From the NCBI GenBank assembly GCA_002686955.1, contig NYZA01000043.1:1-13895 (forward strand): DNA of 13,895 nt, in the 5' to 3' direction. A program made the position numbers and the translations under genes. The notes under the pieces are model-generated. The model saw only the letters and a list, made by a program, of their open reading frames with translations, made no database searches and had not been told where the DNA came from. Shown here in pieces: positions 1-13,895 of the stretch. Each line of letters starts with the position of its first letter. Position 1 is the first letter of the stretch. The DNA is from Gemmatimonadota bacterium. GTDB lineage: Bacteria; GCA-2686955.

Positions 1-95
1 GGGGGATCGGTGGGCGGCAGAGGGTTGGGCACGAAGGCCGCCACCTCTTCTCCGCCGGCTGTGGTGCGCTCGTAGGTTCCTGTTTGGCGCGGCAT
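1..95 (-). CDS. Fic family protein, N-terminal fragment (runs off window start)
   Basis: The reading frame opens with ATG at 93-95 on the minus strand and stays open to the window edge (31 full codons). The peptide begins MPRQTGTYERTTAGGEEVAA and continues FVPNPLPPTDPP. A GTYE..T..GE.V.AFVP.PLPP stretch is characteristic of the Fic_N type of Fic/Doc proteins, which are usually about 370 residues and use a later HPFxDGNGR motif to AMPylate targets. A GGGAAG sequence about 6 nt upstream of the ATG could serve as ribosome binding site. Only the extreme N-terminus is visible, so catalytic competence cannot be judged. The family call rests on the short N-terminal signature and is moderately sure. 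The same Fic subtype seems to be represented by the C-terminal remnant at 7600-7845, and in both places the 155-bp repeat lies on the upstream side of the minus-strand Fic sequence. Confidence 0.65.
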   Translation of the reverse strand, partial: MPRQTGTYERTTAGGEEVAAFVPNPLPPTDP

Positions 96-116: not shown

Positions 117-255
117 GTTCTTTCTTCTCTCGGGGCCAAAAGAAAGGAATCTTTCTTTTCTCGGGCTCGAAAGAAAGAAATCTTTCTTTTGGCCTTTCTA
201 TCGCCTTCGAGTTCAAAAAGAAAGAAATCTTTCTTTTCTCGAGCTCAAAAGAAAG
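117..255. repeat. Tandem A/T-rich palindromes (AAAGAAAG/CTTTCTTT units)
   Basis: This A/T- and purine/pyrimidine-skewed block stands out from the high-GC surroundings. Three short palindromes recur: AAAAGAAAG at 138-146 with CTTTCTTTT at 151-159, AAAGAAAG at 170-177 with CTTTCTTT at 182-189, and AAAAGAAAG at 216-224 with CTTTCTTTT at 229-237. Loops are 4 nt. A fourth left arm lies at 247-255. The first two are nested in a longer perfect inverted repeat: GGCCAAAAGAAAG at 134-146 pairs with CTTTCTTTTGGCC at 182-194. The arms are joined by TCTCGGGCTC-like spacers that also repeat. The block can form several alternative hairpins or one cruciform-like structure. It lies just upstream of the minus-strand Fic start and runs into repeat copy A. 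Its function is unknown. Confidence 0.85.
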
Positions 256-405
256 AAAACCTACTTTTGCCCCTTTTCGTCTCCGCGCACGCGTTCAAAA
301 GCTCTCGCGATCGAGCCCCTATTGCACGCGCGGCCGCCGTGCCGGCGTGGCTTCCGCGATCGACGGTCGGAGGTCTCTGTCGCCCTCCCCTATCCCCTTC
401 TCCCT
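245..405 (+). repeat. Dispersed ~155-bp repeat, copy A
   Basis: This segment is repeated in the same orientation at 7847-8003 with roughly 85% identity by eye. The strongest shared blocks are CTACTTTTGCCCCTTTT, GCGTTCAAAAGCTC, CGCGATCGAGCCCCTATTGC followed by ACGCGC, GCCGGCGTGGCTTCCGCG and CTCTGTCGCCCTCCCC. All reading frames are similar between copies, with differences scattered irrespective of codon position. This fits a non-coding repeat better than a conserved protein. No terminal inverted repeats or target duplication are evident. Both copies adjoin Fic gene debris. Confidence 0.85.
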
Positions 406-480
406 CTAGGAGCCTGTGGGACATGATGCTGGTGGCGGCACGGGGGACGGAGGCTTCGCGCGAGCCGGAACCGGCCGCCG

Positions 481-959
481 GTGTCGAGCTACTCTCTGGG
501 TCCCCCCACTGTGGCCAAGGTGCCGGTGAGCTACCAACCTCCCTACGCAATCACGCCTGAGATTCTCGCGCTCGTGGAGCGGATCGGCGAGGCGCTCGGG
601 CGGCTGTCCGCGCTGTCTGGAACGGCCTCTCTCGCACCGCGGAGGGCGAATCGGATCCGCGCTTTGCGGGGTTCACTGGCCATCGAAGGGAACACGCTGA
701 CCGAGGGGGAGATCAGCACGATCCTCGACACAATCACACAGAGCGACCAAGTGAGCGACCAAGTAGCCAGGCTTCTGGAGTGCCTGCGCGATGGGCCGAA
801 GAACGCGAATGATTGCTGGCCGCACTCGGTCTCTCGCATCGCGCCGGCTTCCGGCGGCGCTATCTCAGGCCGGCGATGGAGGCGGGGCTGGTGGAGATGA
901 CCAACCCGCGTTCGCTGCGGGCGAAGAACCAGCGGTATCGCTTGCTGCTCCGGCCATAG
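481..959 (+). pseudogene. Fic family protein pseudogene: catalytic core deleted and frameshifted
   Basis: The first segment (GTG at 481 to 813) encodes a Fic N-terminal region: ITPEILALVERIGEALGRLS, then RANRIRALRGSLAIEGNTLT and GEISTILD. In intact relatives the latter leads into the Fic domain. Here ILD is joined directly to TITQSDQVSDQVARLLECLR, which is the linker before the C-terminal winged-helix. The roughly 180-200 residues that normally lie between them, including the HPFxDGNGR active site, are absent. One base is also missing after codon GAT at 811-813. Reading from 816 restores LLAALGLSHRAGF, then RRRYLRPAMEAGL, VEMTNP and QRYRLLLRP, ending at TAG 957-959, a typical Fic C-terminus. 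The gene is therefore doubly broken. The original start is uncertain. It belongs to a different Fic subtype from the one at 1-95. Confidence 0.85.
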
Positions 960-960
960 T

Positions 961-2430
961 TCACCTGCGTGCGTTCGAACCGGCACTGGGCGATCGGCTT
1001 GCACCGAAATCTCCCTTGGCGTTCAAGCGCAGGAAGGCGATGAGCCCCCGCAGGTTCCGTTTCACGTCTTCGATGGAGCGTTGTCGCAGGGCGCGCCGGG
1101 CGAGATAGCCGGGTCGAAAGTAGAATTCCTTGTAGCTTCGCACCATGAGATCGGCGAGCTCATCGTAGGTCATGGAGTGAGGCACGAACGAGAGCAGGTG
1201 GAAGGCCGGCGGCCCAAGGGAGTGACCGTGGCGATCGAGATGCTTCCAGAAGCGAGTGCCGCTGAGTGGCGTGAAGTTGAGGAAGTTAGCGTAGTCGATG
1301 GGCAGAGATTTCGCGAATCGGATCGTCTCCAGCCCCTCGCCGTAGCTCTCGCCTGGAATACCGAACATGAACGAAACGAACGACTCGATCTTCGCTCGTC
1401 GGGTCATTTCGATGCCACGTCGGATCTGTTCCAGCGAAACACCTTTGTGAATCGTGTCGAGCTGTTTCTGAACACCCGATTCAGCTCCGAACTGTAAGCG
1501 CCAGCAACCGGCATCGCGCATGATCCCGAGCAGCTCTTCGTCGATCGTATCCACCCGGGAATTGCAGGTCCATGCGATCCGGATACTCCTTTCGCGGAGC
1601 TTGGAACAGTACTCGAGAACGAACTCGCGGTCGGCGGTGAAGGTCTCCGTGAAGAAGAGCAGGTGTCGCACCCCGAATCGACCGCGCAGCCACTCGATCT
1701 CGGCGATGACATCGTCGACGCTGCGCTTTCGAAGGCTGTTGGCCGAGTGACAGAATGAACAACTCGAGCCACAGCCTCGCTCGGTCATCATGTTCACCGA
1801 AGGAACATATTTGTAGGAGCCGATGGCCGGTTTGTATCGACGAATGTCGATCGCATCGTAGTCTGGGAACGGGACATGGTCCAAGTGGTCCGGGAGAGCG
1901 CGCCGCGAATTGACGACGATGTCTCCGTCTCGCCGCCACACCAGTCCCCGAACCGTGTCGGGCGTGCGTCGTCCCCGAACGACATCGCAGAGCTCGACGA
2001 TCGTCTCCTCCGCATCCCCTTGGATCACATAGTCGAGTGCGGCACAGTCCCCGCAGCTCAGCTCCGTCCGCCAGTCGGTCGAGAGGAAGGCGCCACCGAT
2101 CACGAATCGTGCGCCGGGGAGCCGGGAGTCCAGGCGGCGAATTGTGGCGTTCGCCCAGGGCCAGGACAGTTGCGTGCACCAGAAGCCGATCAGATCAGGC
2201 TTGAACGAGAGGATCTCGCTCTCAAAATCTTCACCCTTGGCGAAGAAACCGTCGACGATCCGGGTCTGGTGACCGGCGTTCTTGAGACTGGCCGACAGAT
2301 AGAGCAGCCCCAAGGGGGGCGTGGCTCCTCCGAGCGCGCCGAAGATCCCGCTGCCAATGGTTCTCTTCCCCTTGGATGGGGGATAGGCATCGGAGTGGGA
2401 CCAGGGCGAGATGGCCAGTACGACTTTCAA
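961..2430 (-). CDS. B12-binding domain radical SAM protein
   Basis: 489 residues. The N-terminal part (about 1-150) has the layout of a cobalamin-binding Rossmann domain: MKVVLAISPW, PPLGLLYLSASLKNAGH, LIGFWCTQLSW and FVIGGAF. The radical SAM core follows, with CxxxCxxC at C220, C224 and C227 (CGSSCSFC) to bind the 4Fe-4S cluster that cleaves S-adenosylmethionine. Later core elements are RIAWTCNSRVD, LQFGAESG and SFMFGIPGE. The tail FYFRPGYLARRAL is common in B12-dependent radical SAM enzymes. Such enzymes methylate or rearrange unactivated carbons; the substrate here is not evident. The start is TTG at 2430, supported by GAGGAG 8 nt upstream. The gene is 16 nt downstream of the GT2 gene in the same direction, so the two are probably co-transcribed. 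Its stop lies 1 nt from the stop of the convergent Fic pseudogene. Confidence 0.93.
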   Translation of the reverse strand: MKVVLAISPWSHSDAYPPSKGKRTIGSGIFGALGGATPPLGLLYLSASLKNAGHQTRIVDGFFAKGEDFESEILSFKPDLIGFWCTQLSWPWANATIRRLDSRLPGARFVIGGAFLSTDWRTELSCGDCAALDYVIQGDAEETIVELCDVVRGRRTPDTVRGLVWRRDGDIVVNSRRALPDHLDHVPFPDYDAIDIRRYKPAIGSYKYVPSVNMMTERGCGSSCSFCHSANSLRKRSVDDVIAEIEWLRGRFGVRHLLFFTETFTADREFVLEYCSKLRERSIRIAWTCNSRVDTIDEELLGIMRDAGCWRLQFGAESGVQKQLDTIHKGVSLEQIRRGIEMTRRAKIESFVSFMFGIPGESYGEGLETIRFAKSLPIDYANFLNFTPLSGTRFWKHLDRHGHSLGPPAFHLLSFVPHSMTYDELADLMVRSYKEFYFRPGYLARRALRQRSIEDVKRNLRGLIAFLRLNAKGDFGASRSPSAGSNARR

Positions 2431-2438
2431 CTCGGGTG

Positions 2439-2444
2439 CTCCTC
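2439..2444 (-). promoter_or_regulatory. Ribosome binding site fixing a TTG start
   Basis: GAGGAG (minus strand) lies 8 nt before TTG at 2428-2430. It also lies just after the ATG at 2448-2450, but that ATG opens a 7-codon frame that ends at a TGA overlapping the TTG start region. The spacing therefore favours TTG as the true start of the radical SAM gene and suggests translation coupled to the upstream GT2 gene, whose TGA is at 2447-2449. Confidence 0.7.
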
Positions 2445-2446
2445 GT

Positions 2447-3406
2447 TCATCTAGCCATCCTCGTTCGCCACGTCGCTACGGCGTGTCTGAGATTCCAAAG
2501 ATAGGCCCGAGCGAGAGCCCACAGAAGGGCCGAAGCGACCGCACCGAGCTGTAGCGGAAAGGCCCAGGGGCGGCTCCCCAATGCGCGCAAGCGCGGGGAG
2601 ATGTGCTTGCGCGTGCTGACGCTGCCTCGGCGCAAGCTCCTCAGCTTCCAGGGTTTGAACAGATACAGAAGATCCAGAAGAGGCAAGAGGATCAGCCGCG
2701 CCGGCGAGAAGTGGAGGGCGGCGAATCGGATGCGGTTGCGGTGCACAAGAAAGAGATCCCCCCGGCGCGCCTCGGTGTCGATCTCGTGGATCACTGCGCT
2801 CGCGTCGTCGACCACGCAACGCCTTCCCATCCGCCTGATCCGCCAACAAAGGTCGGTATCCTCCACGAGAAAGAAGTACGCCGGATCGAAACCGCCCAGC
2901 CGGTCGAAGTCGATCCGCCGCATGAGCATGTTGCAGCTCGGCATATAGTCGACGTCGCGTAATCCGCCGTAACCCGATGCCAGCTCCAGCGTTTCGGTCT
3001 CGCCGTTGGCGAGCAGAACCTTCACGCGCCAGAGCTTGCCCCGGTCGCCCTCAACCACGATTTCACCACCGACCGCGCCTACCGTTGAATCGGCATCGAG
3101 GATCCCGCCGGCATGCTCCAGCCGAAATGACTCTGGTATCACGGTGTCGGAATCGAGAAACCAGACGTATTCGCCTCGCGACGCGCGCACGCCCTGGTTC
3201 TTCGCCTCCGCGGCTCCTCGGTTTTCCTCATTCTCCACGATGCGCACATTCGCATGCTGATCTCGCAACCACTCGAGAGTGCCGTCGGTGGACCCGTTGT
3301 CCACCACCACGATCTCGTTCACGGAGGCCGGAATCGAGTCGAGGCAGCGCTGAAGCGCTGCGCGACGATTCCGCACCGGGATGATGACCGACACATCGTG
3401 GACCAT
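2447..3406 (-). CDS. Glycosyltransferase family 2
   Basis: 319 residues with a classic GT-A fold signature. The N-terminal nucleotide-binding strand is VSVIIPVRNR at about residues 5-14, followed by EIVVVDNGSTDGT. The metal/nucleotide-binding DxD motif is D85-S-D87 in WFLDSDTVIP. Downstream there is a GGFDPAYFFLVEDTDLCWR acceptor-side motif, where the ED.D acidic cluster supplies the likely catalytic base. The C-terminus (about 225-315) is more hydrophobic and may lie on the membrane. It should transfer a sugar from a nucleotide donor to a lipid-linked or surface glycan, but donor and acceptor cannot be read from sequence. AAGGAG at 3415-3420 is 8 nt before the ATG at 3404-3406. It heads a two-gene unit with the radical SAM gene 961-2430 and faces away from the second radical SAM gene. 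Confidence 0.93.
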   Translation of the reverse strand: MVHDVSVIIPVRNRRAALQRCLDSIPASVNEIVVVDNGSTDGTLEWLRDQHANVRIVENEENRGAAEAKNQGVRASRGEYVWFLDSDTVIPESFRLEHAGGILDADSTVGAVGGEIVVEGDRGKLWRVKVLLANGETETLELASGYGGLRDVDYMPSCNMLMRRIDFDRLGGFDPAYFFLVEDTDLCWRIRRMGRRCVVDDASAVIHEIDTEARRGDLFLVHRNRIRFAALHFSPARLILLPLLDLLYLFKPWKLRSLRRGSVSTRKHISPRLRALGSRPWAFPLQLGAVASALLWALARAYLWNLRHAVATWRTRMAR

Positions 3407-3599
3407 TCACTTTTCTCCTTTCGGATCGAGGGAACCCTGAGGAGTCGCCACCACCATCGGTGCGCGGCGGAGCACGAGCGTGGATAACATTCCGCACGAT
3501 AGATAGGTTAGACTTTCGCTAGCTGCTATCGCCCCCCCCCGGAACGCGACGAGTGCACGCGATAGGCACGATCCAACTCCCAACCCACCAATTGGGGCA
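3407..3599. promoter_or_regulatory. Divergent intergenic region with a C9 tract
   Basis: This 193-nt region separates two divergently transcribed genes, so it should contain promoters for both. No strong -35/-10 pair for a housekeeping sigma factor is obvious on either strand; the TAG/TAT-rich stretch 3500-3530 is the least GC-rich part. A homopolymer of nine C residues occupies 3532-3540. The plus-strand gene has only a weak ribosome binding site (GGGG at about 5 nt before ATG 3600), which also sits in the CCAATTGG palindrome near 3588-3595. Confidence 0.5.
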
Positions 3600-5387
3600 A
3601 TGAAGCTAGCACTCATCTATCCGCCCTTCTACGCGAAGCAGTTCAACGAGAACCTCGGAACGGTCGATGACCAGTTCGGGCTCTTCCCGCATGTCGCCTT
3701 CGGCTGGATCGCCGCGGTGGCCAAGCAATGCGGATGGCAGGTCCGACTGATCGATGCCGCGGCGGAGCGCATCGATCCGCGTGAGGCGATCGATCAGATC
3801 GAGAGCTGGAATCCGGATCTTCTGGGCTTCGCGGCCCACGCCGCCCAGACGATCCAGGATATGTACGGCTGGGCACGGGTGATCCGTCGAGAGACCGGCA
3901 TCGCGTCGATGGTCGGTGGCTACGAGGCCAAGGCCTATCCGCATGAGATCATGGAGCAAGGTTGCTTCGATTTCCTAGCGGCGGGGGATGCCCCGGCAAT
4001 GCTGCCGGAGTTCCTGAGTGCCTTCGAGCGGGGCCATGGCTACGAGGATGTGCCCAGCCTGGTGTATCAGGCGAGTGGCGAAGCGCGCTTCAGCGGGCGC
4101 ACGGCCCCGCACATCCCCTTCTCTGAGTTCCCGATCCCCGATCGAAGCATCTTTCCTAACCATCTCTACTACTCCCATGTCTCCCAACGGCGCAACTTCA
4201 CCATCGGGATCTCCGAAGTGGGCTGCCCCTACCCCTGCTCCTTTTGCTGCATGCGCCGCACCGGCTTTTCGGCGCGCTCGCCGGAGCAGGTCATCGAGGA
4301 ATTGGAGCAGTGCATCGCTTTGGGGATTCGAGAGATCGACTGGTTCGACCCGCTGATGCTGCATGATCGAACGCGCGTCATCGAGATCGCCCGCGAGATC
4401 AAGCGACGCCGGCTCGACATTATTTGGTCCTGCCGTTCTCGCGTCGACTCCCTCTCCTTTCACCGCGCCGAGGGTGCGGTCGACGAGGAGCTCATCGAGA
4501 GCCTCGCCGAGGGCGGCTGCCGGCGCATCTACTTCGGCATCGAGTCGGGTGACGACGCCGTCCTGAAGCAGATGAGCAAAGGGCAGAAGATCTGCTCGAC
4601 CCAGCGCAACGTGCTGGCGTCGGTTCGGGAAGCCGGGATCATGTCGCTCGGCTTCTTCATCCTTGGGGCTCCCGGCGATACCCCGGAGACCTGCAAGAGA
4701 ACCGTCTCTCTGGCGCTTTCTCTCCCCCTGTCCTACGCCCAGTTCCAGATCGCGATCATCAAGCCACACACCGAGCTGGAAAGGGACCATATCGTCGAGG
4801 GTAGCGGAATCGACTATTGGCGCGACTACGTTCGCGGAAGGGTCGGGGAGCGAGAGCTGCCCAATCCCTGGACCGAGATGTCTCGTGCCGCTCTGGAAGC
4901 GACGGCCAAACGCGCCTATTTCCAGTTCTACGCGCGCCCCCGCTACATCCTCATGATGCTCCGCCGCATCGAGTCCAGCCGAGAGCTCTACCGCTACGCA
5001 CGGGTGGCGCTACAGCTCTTGCTGCGACCGGTTCGGGCTAGCGAGGACTCGGGCCGATCGCGGCCACGGCGCCTCGGGCGGGCCGCCGGTGCCTTCGTCG
5101 AAGCGGTGCTGAACCCAAGAAGCCAGGGAGCGCGGCACCCCGTGATCCGCATGGGTGGCGGGATTCGTGGGGCATGCAGACTGGCGATGGCGGAGTGGCG
5201 TTGGCGTAGGGAGGAGAAGGGGGTGGACCCGGCCTCGCCGGTGCCCGCGGACCCGGTCAATGGTGCGATCATCCCTCCACCGGCTCCAACGCAGGGCGCC
5301 CACGTTCTCCCCGGCCGCTACGTACCCTTTCTGGATGCGATTCCGTTCGCAAACGGTCGCGCGATATCGGAGACGGCGATCGACTGA
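3600..5387 (+). CDS. B12-binding domain radical SAM protein, long form
   Basis: 595 residues. The N-terminal cobalamin-binding-like region includes MKLALIYPPFY, HVAFGWIAAVAKQCGWQVRL, LLGFAAHAAQT and ASMVGGYEA. The radical SAM motif is C209, C213 and C216 (CPYPCSFC). Later elements are IREIDWFDPLML, IIWSCRSRVDS, RRIYFGIESGDD and LGFFILGAPGDT. The core and the usual ARPRYILMMLRRI tail end near residue 460. About 130 further residues (to 595), rich in Arg, Gly and Pro, have no domain I recognise. It is paralogous to 961-2430 but not a close copy. A role in modifying a glycan, lipid or hopanoid-type substrate is inferred from the GT neighbours only. The start codon is ATG with a weak upstream Shine-Dalgarno. 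The next gene is convergent with a 28-nt gap. Confidence 0.92.
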   Translation: MKLALIYPPFYAKQFNENLGTVDDQFGLFPHVAFGWIAAVAKQCGWQVRLIDAAAERIDPREAIDQIESWNPDLLGFAAHAAQTIQDMYGWARVIRRETGIASMVGGYEAKAYPHEIMEQGCFDFLAAGDAPAMLPEFLSAFERGHGYEDVPSLVYQASGEARFSGRTAPHIPFSEFPIPDRSIFPNHLYYSHVSQRRNFTIGISEVGCPYPCSFCCMRRTGFSARSPEQVIEELEQCIALGIREIDWFDPLMLHDRTRVIEIAREIKRRRLDIIWSCRSRVDSLSFHRAEGAVDEELIESLAEGGCRRIYFGIESGDDAVLKQMSKGQKICSTQRNVLASVREAGIMSLGFFILGAPGDTPETCKRTVSLALSLPLSYAQFQIAIIKPHTELERDHIVEGSGIDYWRDYVRGRVGERELPNPWTEMSRAALEATAKRAYFQFYARPRYILMMLRRIESSRELYRYARVALQLLLRPVRASEDSGRSRPRRLGRAAGAFVEAVLNPRSQGARHPVIRMGGGIRGACRLAMAEWRWRREEKGVDPASPVPADPVNGAIIPPPAPTQGAHVLPGRYVPFLDAIPFANGRAISETAID

Positions 5388-5415
5388 CCATCGCCGCGGA
5401 GCCTGTCCGCCCGGC

Positions 5416-7500
5416 TCACTCCAAATCGCTGTCCTTCAGTGAGCCCGCTGGTGCCAGCTCGATCTCGGCAAGGCGCAAGGGAACCCTGCTATCACCGAGC
5501 GGTTCGAACTCCAATGTGAGCTCGGTGATTTCCGGCAGCAGCAACCACTGAGGGAAGCAACCGGCCTGGAGCAGAAGCTCGTGCTGCCTCGCTCTCAGGT
5601 TAGCCGTAGCGTGTCCCGTGATCTGTCGATTCCCCGGGAATGCCGGGGACCAGCGCATCGTCACCCGCCAAGCGTTCGAGTCATCGACGGCTTGGGCGAG
5701 CACGAGCAGCAATCCATCGTGTGCCCAAGGCTCCGCCTCGATGCAGGGGTGATGGAGGCTCAGCGCGCCGTCGATCCGGAGTCCGCCTTCACTTCCCTCT
5801 TCGATCTCTCCGGCTCCTTGCAGGCTCCACTCCGACCAGGGACGCCCCCAATGACCCCAGTAGCGCGGCACCTCTCCCGCCGAGAGAAATCGTCTCTCCA
5901 CCGCGAATTCCATCGCGTCGGTCCAGTCTTCCAGCACCTGCCCCTCGGGATTCCACAAAAAAAGATGGTCGCTTGCTCCCCACTGCAATTGGTCCACCGG
6001 ATAGTCGGGTCGCCAGCCAAACCCCCAGCGCGGATCTCTGGGCTGGAAGGCGACCTGGGAATCGTCTTCCAGAGCAACCGCGAAGAAGCGTGCTTCCCGG
6101 CGCAGGGAGAGCCAGGCGGTGACGTCGGCCGGTTGTGAGGCAGTGTTCCCGAAGAAGTGAAGGCGGGATCCGTCGGCTACTCGCGTGGTCTTGATCCGCA
6201 GCTCCTGCGCCAATCTCTCGAGCTCGAGGGCGTTGAAATGGTGTGCTCCGGCCACTTCGCCGAAACCTCGCCAGTAGACGAGCAGAATCGGCAGGAGCAA
6301 GAGTCCGCCCACCGATCGGTGGATCCAGTGATGGCCCGGTCGCGCCAGTCGACCCAGCGGAGCCAGGAGCAGCGCGCTGATTGTCAGAGCCGCGAATGGG
6401 GTGGAGTAGTAGAAGCGTCGGATCTGCGCGTCTTCGACCGACCAGCGTGCGATGTCCGGCACCACCGGCAGGATCAGCGCAAACGCCGCCGCCACGACGA
6501 AGAGCAATGAGAGCAAGACCGAGCGGCTGCGCCATCGACAAAGGAGCACGCCGACCACCAACCCGGGCGCGATCGAGCCGACGATGCTCCCGGCAGCCGC
6601 CGCGCCCGGGGGCCAGGGAAGCAGCATCGCCCGCGGGAAGTCGAAAAGCAACACACGAAGGGCCGAGCGGAGCTCACCCAGGTATTTCCAGACGCCGAAT
6701 ATCGGCACCTGTGCTGGTCCCGTGACCCCGCCGATGAGGCTCCCATGCACCTCCATCTTGGCCCATAGCCCCAGCGCGACGGCGCCGGCATGCGGCACGA
6801 AAGCCAGCCATCGAAAGCGAGAGCCGCGATCGAGCCCCGGCACCAGAGCCTCGGCGAGCACGATCACCACCGGCAGCACCACGGCGGTCTCCTTGCAGAA
6901 CACCGCCACCAAGGCGGCTTCCCAGGAGAACGCGAGCCACAAGAGGCGCCGTCCACCCCGCGAGCGCGCTCTCAGGTAGCAGGCAAGACTGGTCAGGCTG
7001 GCGAGCTGGAGCATCCCTTCCTCGCGCATAACGATCCACGCGATGATCTCTCCGGCGAAGGGGTGGACCGTGAAGAGCAGCGAGCCCGAAAACGCGGCGC
7101 TTCGGGACCGGAAAAGCCTGAGAGCCAGTCGATAGACGACCAGCGCGCTCAGCAGATGGAAAAGGGCGGTCGTGCAATGCCAACCCAGCGGGTCCAGCGG
7201 CCAGACCAGGGTGTCCCAGATCGAGGTGAGCCTCGGCAGGGGGCGGAATCCACGGTCCCGGGGCTGAGTCACATGCTCGAGGACCGCCTCGAGGACCGCC
7301 GCCCAGGATCCACGCCGAACCAGCTCGTGACCCCAGCTGAGATACTTGAAGTCATCGCGGACGAAGAAGCCGCCCAGATACTCCCAGAATCGTGTCAGTC
7401 CAAGGGCCCACAGAGAGATCGGCACCAATGCCCAGTCGAACCACGCCCTTCGACGCCGGGACCGCCGCGACGCCGGTGCTCTTACTACCTTTCGACTCAT
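5416..7500 (-). CDS. Polytopic GT-C-type glycosyltransferase with soluble C-terminal domain
   Basis: 694 residues. After a basic N-terminus (RRSRRRR at 12-18) there are multiple hydrophobic segments between about 22 and 415. The first extracytoplasmic loop carries the acidic pair D49-D50 (FVRDDFKYL), the usual metal/catalytic position in GT-C enzymes. Other family-like motifs are HLLSALVVYRLALRLF (115-130), HPFAGEIIAWI..R (146-159) and FCKETAVVLP (201-210), as seen in PMT/GT39-like and TMTC-like proteins. Such enzymes take polyprenyl-phosphate sugars and glycosylate lipids or proteins on the outer face of the inner membrane. Residues from about 430 to 694 form a soluble, Trp- and beta-rich region (GHWGRPWSEWSLQGAG, LLLQAG) that may be a jelly-roll sugar-binding module; that is a guess. 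The ATG at 7498-7500 has only a weak Shine-Dalgarno. Confidence 0.88.
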   Translation of the reverse strand: MSRKVVRAPASRRSRRRRAWFDWALVPISLWALGLTRFWEYLGGFFVRDDFKYLSWGHELVRRGSWAAVLEAVLEHVTQPRDRGFRPLPRLTSIWDTLVWPLDPLGWHCTTALFHLLSALVVYRLALRLFRSRSAAFSGSLLFTVHPFAGEIIAWIVMREEGMLQLASLTSLACYLRARSRGGRRLLWLAFSWEAALVAVFCKETAVVLPVVIVLAEALVPGLDRGSRFRWLAFVPHAGAVALGLWAKMEVHGSLIGGVTGPAQVPIFGVWKYLGELRSALRVLLFDFPRAMLLPWPPGAAAAGSIVGSIAPGLVVGVLLCRWRSRSVLLSLLFVVAAAFALILPVVPDIARWSVEDAQIRRFYYSTPFAALTISALLLAPLGRLARPGHHWIHRSVGGLLLLPILLVYWRGFGEVAGAHHFNALELERLAQELRIKTTRVADGSRLHFFGNTASQPADVTAWLSLRREARFFAVALEDDSQVAFQPRDPRWGFGWRPDYPVDQLQWGASDHLFLWNPEGQVLEDWTDAMEFAVERRFLSAGEVPRYWGHWGRPWSEWSLQGAGEIEEGSEGGLRIDGALSLHHPCIEAEPWAHDGLLLVLAQAVDDSNAWRVTMRWSPAFPGNRQITGHATANLRARQHELLLQAGCFPQWLLLPEITELTLEFEPLGDSRVPLRLAEIELAPAGSLKDSDLE

Positions 7501-7551
7501 GGAGAAATGCTACCCAAGTCCTCCGGGGTTGAGCATCACGTTATTCCGTGT

Positions 7552-7568
7552 CGCGGCTGTCGGCCGCG
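7552..7568 (-). other. GC-rich hairpin between Fic remnant and GT-C gene
   Basis: CGCGGC at 7552-7557 and GCCGCG at 7563-7568 form a perfect 6-bp stem with a TGTCG loop. The palindrome GCTCGAGC lies next to it at about 7573-7580. It sits just past the stop of the Fic remnant in the direction of transcription. No T-run follows, so a terminator role is weakly supported. Confidence 0.3.
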
Positions 7569-7599
7569 AGTTGCTCGAGCAGCCGAATCGCACTGCGGA

Positions 7600-7845
7600 C
7601 TACAACTCCGTCCCCACGCGCAAGAGATCGAGGTAGGCGGCGCAGCTGAGGCGTTGGTCCCGTTTGCGGCCGGTGGTTTCCACGAGCACCTCGGCGTCGA
7701 CCAGCGCCTTCACGGCCATCGTCGCGGTCGGCCTTGTGGTTTCGAGCAGCCGCATGGCGGAAGGGATGGAGAGCACCGGGTTCTTGGGCAGAGCCTCGAA
7801 GAGCCGGGCTGCCATGAGCGTGCTCGTCTTGGCGTTCAGCACCTG
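7600..7845 (-). pseudogene. Fic family C-terminal remnant
   Basis: This short frame encodes VLNAKTSTLMAARLFEALPK, then NPVLSIPSAMRLLETTRPTA, then KALVDAEVLVETTGRKRDQR and YLDLLRVGTEL, ending at a stop at 7600-7602. The pattern is the C-terminal winged helix of Fic_N-type Fic proteins: RLFEALP.NPVL...A..LL.TT.PTA..A...LV..GVLVETTGRKRDR...Y..YL..LR.GTEL. No Fic domain precedes it. Upstream the frame reaches TAG within a few codons and the sequence becomes the dispersed repeat (copy B) at 7847. The GTG at 7840-7842 could act as a start, but a free-standing product would be an 80-residue HTH fragment. It is most likely the 3' end of a truncated gene of the same subtype as the one beginning at 95. 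Confidence 0.8.
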
Positions 7846-7846
7846 T

Positions 7847-8003
7847 TCAAAAGGAAAGAAACCCTACTTTTGCCCCTTTTTCGCGCCCGCACACGCGTTC
7901 AAAAGCTCCCGCGATCGAGCCCCTATTGCACGCGCAGCCACCGCGCCGGCGTGGCTTCCGCGGTCGACGATCGGCGAGCTCTGTCGCCCTCCCCGATCCT
8001 CTT
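7847..8003 (+). repeat. Dispersed ~155-bp repeat, copy B
   Basis: This is the second copy of the segment at 245-405 and runs in the same direction. It starts TCAAAAGGAAAGAAACCCTA and contains GCGTTCAAAAGCTCCCGCGA, GCCCCTATTGCACGCGC and GCCGGCGTGGCTTCCGCG. It ends next to CTCTGTCGCCCTCCCCGATC. It lacks the palindrome array present beside copy A and retains only one AAAAGGAAAG-like arm. One end touches the truncated Fic remnant. The other touches the stop codon of the GNAT gene at 8004-8006. Confidence 0.85.
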
Positions 8004-12482: not shown

Positions 12483-12487
12483 GGAGG
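12483..12487 (+). promoter_or_regulatory. Flagellin ribosome binding site
   Basis: GGAGG lies 7 nt before ATG 12495-12497, a strong Shine-Dalgarno at ideal spacing. The surrounding CACGGAGGA contains two overlapping GGA triplets. Another AGGAGG at 12453-12458 has no start codon behind it and could be a decoy or a further GGA site. Confidence 0.75.
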
Positions 12488-12494
12488 ATCGAAG

Positions 12495-13895
12495 ATGTCA
12501 TTGCGCATCAATCACAACATCGCGTCCATGAACGCCTTCCGGAATCTGACGAAGGTCGAGCATGGGCTGAACAAGAACCTGGAGCGGCTCTCGAGCGGTC
12601 TTCGGATCAACTCGGCGGCCGACGACCCCGCGGGTCTCTCGATCTCGCAGCAGTTCCGTGCCCAGATCTCCGGCCTCGGGCAGGCGATCGAAAACGCAGA
12701 GACCTCGATCAACATGCTGCTGACGGCAGAGGGCGCCCTGGCCGAGGTGCACAACCTGCTCACCACGATGCGTGAGCTGGCCGTGCACGCGTCGAACGAG
12801 GGGGTAAACGACGCGACGATGCTGGCCGCGGATCAGGACCAGCTGGAGTCGGCGATCGATACGATCACCCGGATCGCGCAGGAGACGCAGTTCGGTGCCC
12901 AGTATCTGCTGGACGGGTCGTCCGACAACGGCATCGGGATCTCGACCAATGCATCCGACATCGAGCTGGCTCAGAACTCCACACTCTCGGAAGGGTTCCA
13001 CACCGTCACCGTGAGCTCGGTGGTCGACGCGAGTCAGTTCATCGACAACGAATCGTTGGGTCTATCCGATCCGACCAGCGTCGTCGGGCTCGATGCGGGC
13101 GACCACCAGGTCGTGGTCACGCAGGAGTCGGCCGGTGCCATCGTGAGCGGCGACGACATCGACTTCACCAGCACCCTCACGATCACGGCGGGCGTGAACG
13201 ACGACTTCATGCTCTCGCTCGACGGTGGGAGCGCGATGACGGTCACGGTCGCAGCGGGTGGCCATACGAACGCCACCACTCTCGCCGCGGCGATCGAGAC
13301 CGCCGTGAACATGGGCTTGACCACCGCTTCCCTCTCCGCAGCCGAAATCGATGTCACGGCAACGGGTGACCAGCTGGTGTTCACCACAGGAGACCAGGGC
13401 TCGGCGGCGTCGATCAGCATTCACGACACGGGCCTCACCACCAGCTCTCTCGCGGATATCAACGTGACACAGCAGGTGACGGTGGGAACCGACGCGATCG
13501 TGACGCTCGACAACCAGGTGAACTACATCTACGACGTCGATGAGCGTCAAGACGGCAGCGCGACACTGCAAGACAAGGATGGCAACACAGTCGACTTCAC
13601 CGTCGGCAATGCGTCGGCCGGCCTGACGCTGGGCTCCACCACCCTCACCTTCAACGCCAAGAGCTTCCTGGTCGATCTCGATGGGGATGTGCAGGGCCGT
13701 TTCGAGGTGGGCAAGACCGGCACGATCTCGAACGGCCGAGAGTCGGTCGATCTTCGCTTCGGAAGCAATGTCGCCGCTGGGATCAACAAGATCCGGGCAG
13801 AGGACAACTCTCTGCGCTTCCAGATCGGCGCCAACGAGGGGCAGTTCAAGGAGATCTCGATCGCCTCGATGGCGGGAACTCAGCTCGGACTGACC
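12495..13895 (+). CDS. fliC: Flagellin, 3' end beyond window
   Basis: Open from ATG to the window edge (467 codons, no stop). The N-terminal D0/D1 region (1 to about 140) is canonical: SLRINHNIASMNAFRNL, LERLSSGLRINSAADDPAGL, ISGLGQAIENAETSINMLLT, TTMRELAVHASN and TQFGAQYLLDG. The central region (about 145-430) is long, Thr/Ser/Asp-rich and variable. Residues about 228-272 (TITAGVNDDFMLSLDGG, TVTVAAGG) match the Flagellin_IN type of inserted motif. The C-terminal D1 begins near residue 440 with LRFQIGANEGQ, so perhaps 80-150 residues are missing past the window. The product is secreted through the flagellar type III apparatus and polymerises as filament. The Ser/Thr-rich middle is a plausible target for O-glycosylation by the upstream TPR glycosyltransferase. 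Expression is likely under sigma-28 with leader-mediated translational control. Confidence 0.96.
   Translation, partial: MSLRINHNIASMNAFRNLTKVEHGLNKNLERLSSGLRINSAADDPAGLSISQQFRAQISGLGQAIENAETSINMLLTAEGALAEVHNLLTTMRELAVHASNEGVNDATMLAADQDQLESAIDTITRIAQETQFGAQYLLDGSSDNGIGISTNASDIELAQNSTLSEGFHTVTVSSVVDASQFIDNESLGLSDPTSVVGLDAGDHQVVVTQESAGAIVSGDDIDFTSTLTITAGVNDDFMLSLDGGSAMTVTVAAGGHTNATTLAAAIETAVNMGLTTASLSAAEIDVTATGDQLVFTTGDQGSAASISIHDTGLTTSSLADINVTQQVTVGTDAIVTLDNQVNYIYDVDERQDGSATLQDKDGNTVDFTVGNASAGLTLGSTTLTFNAKSFLVDLDGDVQGRFEVGKTGTISNGRESVDLRFGSNVAAGINKIRAEDNSLRFQIGANEGQFKEISIASMAGTQLGLT

Follow-up and report, generated by a model that had tools for sequence, protein, structure and literature searches.

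A lineage-specific family of dispersed ~115-bp intergenic repeats whose copies may be kept as DNA sites

According to a review, bacterial repeats of about this size mostly possess terminal inverted repeats, target duplications and stable stem-loop transcripts (PMC2229807; see also PMC10969869). ERIC (or RU-1) of enterobacteria, an intergenic repeat of 127 bp, displays terminal inverted repeats, a target duplication, TA ends and a long stem-loop (PMC2229807, PMC10969869). The Correia (or NEMIS) repeats of Neisseria are small and dispersed and contain 24-bp terminal inverted repeats together with target duplications; some of them carry a site for the DNA-bending IHF (PMC2229807, PMC10969869). 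The Caulobacter CcrM-associated intergenic repeats (CIR) measure ~110 bp, are dispersed between genes and contain conserved motifs internally. They are listed without a terminal inverted repeat, and their RNAs, which contain GANTC, fold into two long stem arms (PMC2229807). The REP/REPIN sequences, which are linked to RAYT transposases, occur in many dispersed extragenic copies. Small dispersed repeats of bacteria are usually read as palindromic transposon relics or as structured RNAs. The family described here shows neither mark.

The family came to light in the window, i.e. the whole stretch of 13,895 nucleotides that was analysed. The original prediction described a repeat of ~155 bp in two copies of the same orientation, each next to the wreck of a Fic gene. 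Pairwise alignment confirmed the repeat: copy A (245-405) and copy B (7847-8003) lie on the same strand at a spacing of 7,604 bp and are 88.5% identical across 157 bp (E 5e-51), far beyond chance. The features of the window are as follows.

3 to 95, minus strand: N-terminus of a Fic-family gene (residues 1-31, tblastn), running off the contig
134 to 240, no strand: three palindromes (AAAGAAAG..CTTTCTTT) that separate the Fic start from copy A
245 to 279, plus strand: upstream flank of copy A (AAAAGAAAGAAAACCTACTTTTGCCCC...), common to copy B only; the pair alignment reaches -43
280 to 399, plus strand: copy A of the dispersed element, family-wide unit (genome-wide search; profile match 4-116 of 125, E 2e-21; bounds from the conservation profile)
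288 to 302, plus strand: core CACGCGTTCAAAAGC of copy A
481 to 957, plus strand: pseudogene from another Fic subfamily, internally deleted and with a broken frame
961 to 2430 and 3600 to 5387: two B12-binding radical SAM proteins
7618 to 7845, minus strand: C-terminal remnant of a Fic-family gene (residues 305-381, tblastn)
7847 to 7883, plus strand: upstream flank of copy B, common to copy A only (pair alignment)
7884 to 8003, plus strand: copy B of the dispersed element, family-wide unit (genome-wide search; profile match E 4e-21)
7892 to 7906, plus strand: core of copy B
12483 to 13895: flagellin gene running off the contig

Within the window, the family-wide unit covers only ~280-399 and 7884-8003 and is narrower than the similarity between A and B. 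The ~40 extra upstream bases (in copy A the 245-279 part reads AAAAGAAAG..CTACTTTTGCCCC) are present in these two copies alone and absent from the others.

A mobile or recombinogenic element had been expected to recur many times in the genome, and a count of only two, inside one longer duplicated tract and without an association in relatives, would have spoken against it. Copy A finds 19 places in its own genome by BLAST, and the core CACGCGTTCAAAAGC (15 bases, up to one mismatch allowed) matches 42 times, compared to 2 in a reversed control. A sequence-only profile was built from 41 copies. In the same genome (a single draft, 84.5% complete) it locates 57 places, of which 49 reach E<1e-9. No copies were found by profile search of one other genome of the phylum, the second in the family, nor in 288 further genomes under stricter filters. 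A gapped pattern scan of 84,980 species returned three matches only, near chance at 11-15 bits, and the same type of scan found no copies in 2.9 million viral contigs. The family is lineage-specific, being seen in one genome only among those searched.

The element has a core of ~115 bp with the consensus GC-CACGCGTTCAAAAGC...tGCGTsGC...CGCrtAtCGCC and a conservation content of ~107 bits. According to the conservation profile the unit is ~115-125 bp long with sharp bounds: conservation begins ~12 bases ahead of the core and ends ~112 past its first base. The alignment can be subdivided into two main subfamilies with an identical order of blocks. The copies are isolated, occur in both orientations without cassette arrays and lie mostly between genes, where the four arrangements of neighboring genes are equally common (11/10/10/10). 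Genes near the copies were predicted with a simple custom caller. A small number of copies extend into predicted genes; in three cases the overlapping part precedes the Pfam domain, and the called start may be wrong there. In the closest pairs the similarity spans the unit and hardly extends beyond it (for example -8 to +127, -11 to +152 and -43 to +111), the DNA outside being unrelated. As the copies are mostly intergenic, randomly oriented and surrounded by unrelated flanks, the unit was copied around the genome. Three of the closest pairs each sit within a single contig at 3-8 kb (the window, C246 and C228), which suggests that some of the spread proceeded by local duplication. From the predicted family of mobile or recombinogenic non-coding elements, the dispersed non-coding family thus stands (57 copies in non-homologous flanks), while "mobile" holds in the sense of past copying only.

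Right-handed beta-helix domains give 133 matches genome-wide, several of them adjoining repeat copies. Beta-helix genes make up 9 of 86 copy neighbors, with two further genes overlapping a copy, compared to 4 of 87 in the control (one of which overlaps a copy); their somewhat higher frequency beside copies is only suggestive. The 23-kb contig C228 contains five copies as well as long beta-helix genes.

The sequence of the family looks constrained copy by copy. A comparison of eleven independent sister pairs gives 30 differences in 441 positions of conserved columns and 156 in 579 positions of variable columns (p 7e-18), a fourfold lower divergence at the former of which detection bias accounts for a part, according to a decay simulation. 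The three closest pairs display 1 change in 119 conserved positions and 22 in 159 variable ones. Simulated neutral decay of 10-15% yields mean scores of 40-51 bits, whereas most real copies score 60-87. Since conserved columns differ less between sisters and the scores are unlike those of simulated decay, selection is suggested to act on each single copy, as far as one draft genome can tell in which sister copies may link through unsampled intermediates. We infer that the family spread by duplication and that each of its mostly intergenic copies is retained as a protein-bound site in double-stranded DNA, a reading to which we assign a probability of roughly 50%.

A possible though doubtful alternative is that the copies are relics of a non-autonomous MITE-like transposon that was moved in trans. 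The conserved blocks would then be its ends and transposase sites, with no role for the host. Small size, lack of coding capacity, dispersal, the mostly intergenic position and the random orientation all fit, as does the copying of a unit into unrelated flanks, and other MITE-like palindromes do exist in the genome. By eye, ~10 imperfectly matching inverted bases can be seen at the ends of one subfamily (GGCGcACGCG / GGCGatACGCG); inverted words of 6-7 bases are absent from the consensus ends. However, the search of the edges for target duplications, which had been suggested along with the original prediction, was negative: no length or offset clearly exceeded permuted flanks, with the reservation that age may have erased such duplications from the copies. 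Lacking target duplications and a stable stem-loop, the element does not pass as a MITE or ERIC-type repeat. The best pair is just 93% identical, no autonomous partner was found among the few transposase families searched, and the constraint between sister copies also argues against relics. When empty sites were sought in the other genome of the phylum, no usable orthologues were obtained.

Two other repeats were observed in the genome. One is a ~185-bp palindromic, MITE-like element with the ends GGGTCCGCGCAAGAATA, of which copies with 84-94% identity lie in L054, L058, L068 and L082 and shorter kin in L050 and at L052:1238-1345. The other is an inverted repeat with the ends AGGAGCCTGTTGCGCATAG (L074:3595-3760, L070:99 and window 408); its first ten bases directly follow copy A.

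A role of the elements as promoters or as genes for short RNAs without structure is unlikely. Of the 21 same-strand downstream genes, 12 have their start 85-158 bp from the 3' end of the element, and among the 21 divergent genes at the 5' side there is none with a start at 50-160 bp, both windows having been chosen post hoc. This spacing is a hint of a directional signal. On the other hand, the copies as a whole have no preferred orientation relative to genes, and half face gene ends. Folding of the copy flanks is no stronger than that of shuffled sequence, and no terminator-like structure is found downstream. The element itself displays neither a three-base (codon) period nor a helical periodicity.

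A folded element, either a structured non-coding RNA or an integron attC site, is very improbable. The constant block spacing would agree with it, and one pair of segments seemed complementary by eye (the GGAG/CGCG block and the 3' end); the latter helix is gone within subfamilies. A conserved fold had been proposed as a test, and its outcome was negative: the RNAalifold consensus contains two base pairs only, and the folding energies relative to shuffled sequence have mean z-scores of -0.07 for one strand and 0.05 for the other. The scan for covarying segments gave noise, with no covariation within subfamilies (p 0.6). No Rfam match was obtained at the elements, and a structured RNA was rejected on these grounds. 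The attC site was rejected by the missing fold and by the isolated copies in both orientations without cassette arrays. A mir-548 Rfam score in locus L027 lies on another inverted repeat.

The proposed association with Fic genes did not survive the genome-wide search. The Fic domain PF02661 has no match in the genome at E<=0.001, and a search with a full Fic protein recovers only the two pieces in the window and one at the end of another contig, C166, where no copy of the repeat is found in the 1.8 kb examined. Fic pieces adjoin 2 of the 57 copies, and the genes flanking copies across the genome are a mixed and diverse set. An element dedicated to Fic genes was therefore rejected; the link is a local one.

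Within the window, the description of the Fic pieces proved accurate. In tblastn both minus-strand pieces match WP_048227653.1, the N-terminus over residues 1-31 with 58% (weak taken singly) and the C-terminal remnant over residues 305-381 with ~48% (E 3e-9 to 5e-10). The remnant is indeed cut almost exactly where the shared sequence of copy B begins, with a gap of 2 bp (7845 / 7847). The plus-strand pseudogene beside copy A was recovered as well: the open reading frame from 481 matches the N-terminus of another Fic protein with 52% over 69 aa. As the match then skips to a later part of that protein, the frame is a wreck. Bases 1-91 of the window are identical to C166:260-350, both at contig ends, and the DNA upstream differs. 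Hence, the left end probably represents an assembly fork, a strain variant or a repeated or duplicated Fic start.

The predicted ancestral duplication of Fic plus flank with loss of the middle is plausible for the A/B pair alone, because a single protein matches the two minus-strand Fic pieces and ~40 bp of extra flank are shared. A segment of Fic, flank and element would have been duplicated, and the B side would subsequently have lost the Fic middle and the palindromes of 134-240, which were not found in the other element loci examined. This history would be local and would say nothing on the family at large. As the whole story, i.e. a local duplication without a wider family, this is scarcely credible: the protein match, the shared flank and the local position of other closest pairs favor it, and the 55 further copies elsewhere refute it.

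To the extent that sequence can show it, folding, coding, target duplication and a linkage to Fic are ruled out, which leaves a double-stranded DNA site as the best reading. Duplication of the unit, partly local within 3-8 kb, would have spread the copies, and each would be kept as a putative site with several blocks at fixed spacing. The candidate binder is most likely a chromosome-associated or regulatory protein. More tentatively, and somewhat unlikely in this specific form, an unfolded multi-block site of ~115 bp with ~60 placements in one lineage could be selected, copy by copy, as a putative platform for a chromosome-organizing or insulating protein complex. A counterpoint to any host role is that the second genome of the family lives without the element. 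If the constraint holds, a phylum with little sampling would possess a chromosomal site that is repeated and serves the host, and the search for the protein reading this site would have a concrete target.

Compared to the known systems, the family resembles ERIC in size, copy number and intergenic location, and none of the hallmarks of ERIC were clearly seen in it. The Correia repeats share the small size and dispersal and differ by their inverted repeats and target duplications. REP/REPIN was rejected: the element is much longer and without palindrome, and the single Y1 transposase gene of the genome (Y1_Tnp, on C59) lies on a contig without a profile match. A literature search for dispersed repeats that lack inverted ends yielded no helpful parallel. 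CIR comes closest, with similar size, dispersal and internal motifs; the present element differs from it by having no fold and no GANTC in its consensus. Because even this closest system folds and carries GANTC, the family is filed outside the named families, as a variant of the dispersed intergenic repeat.
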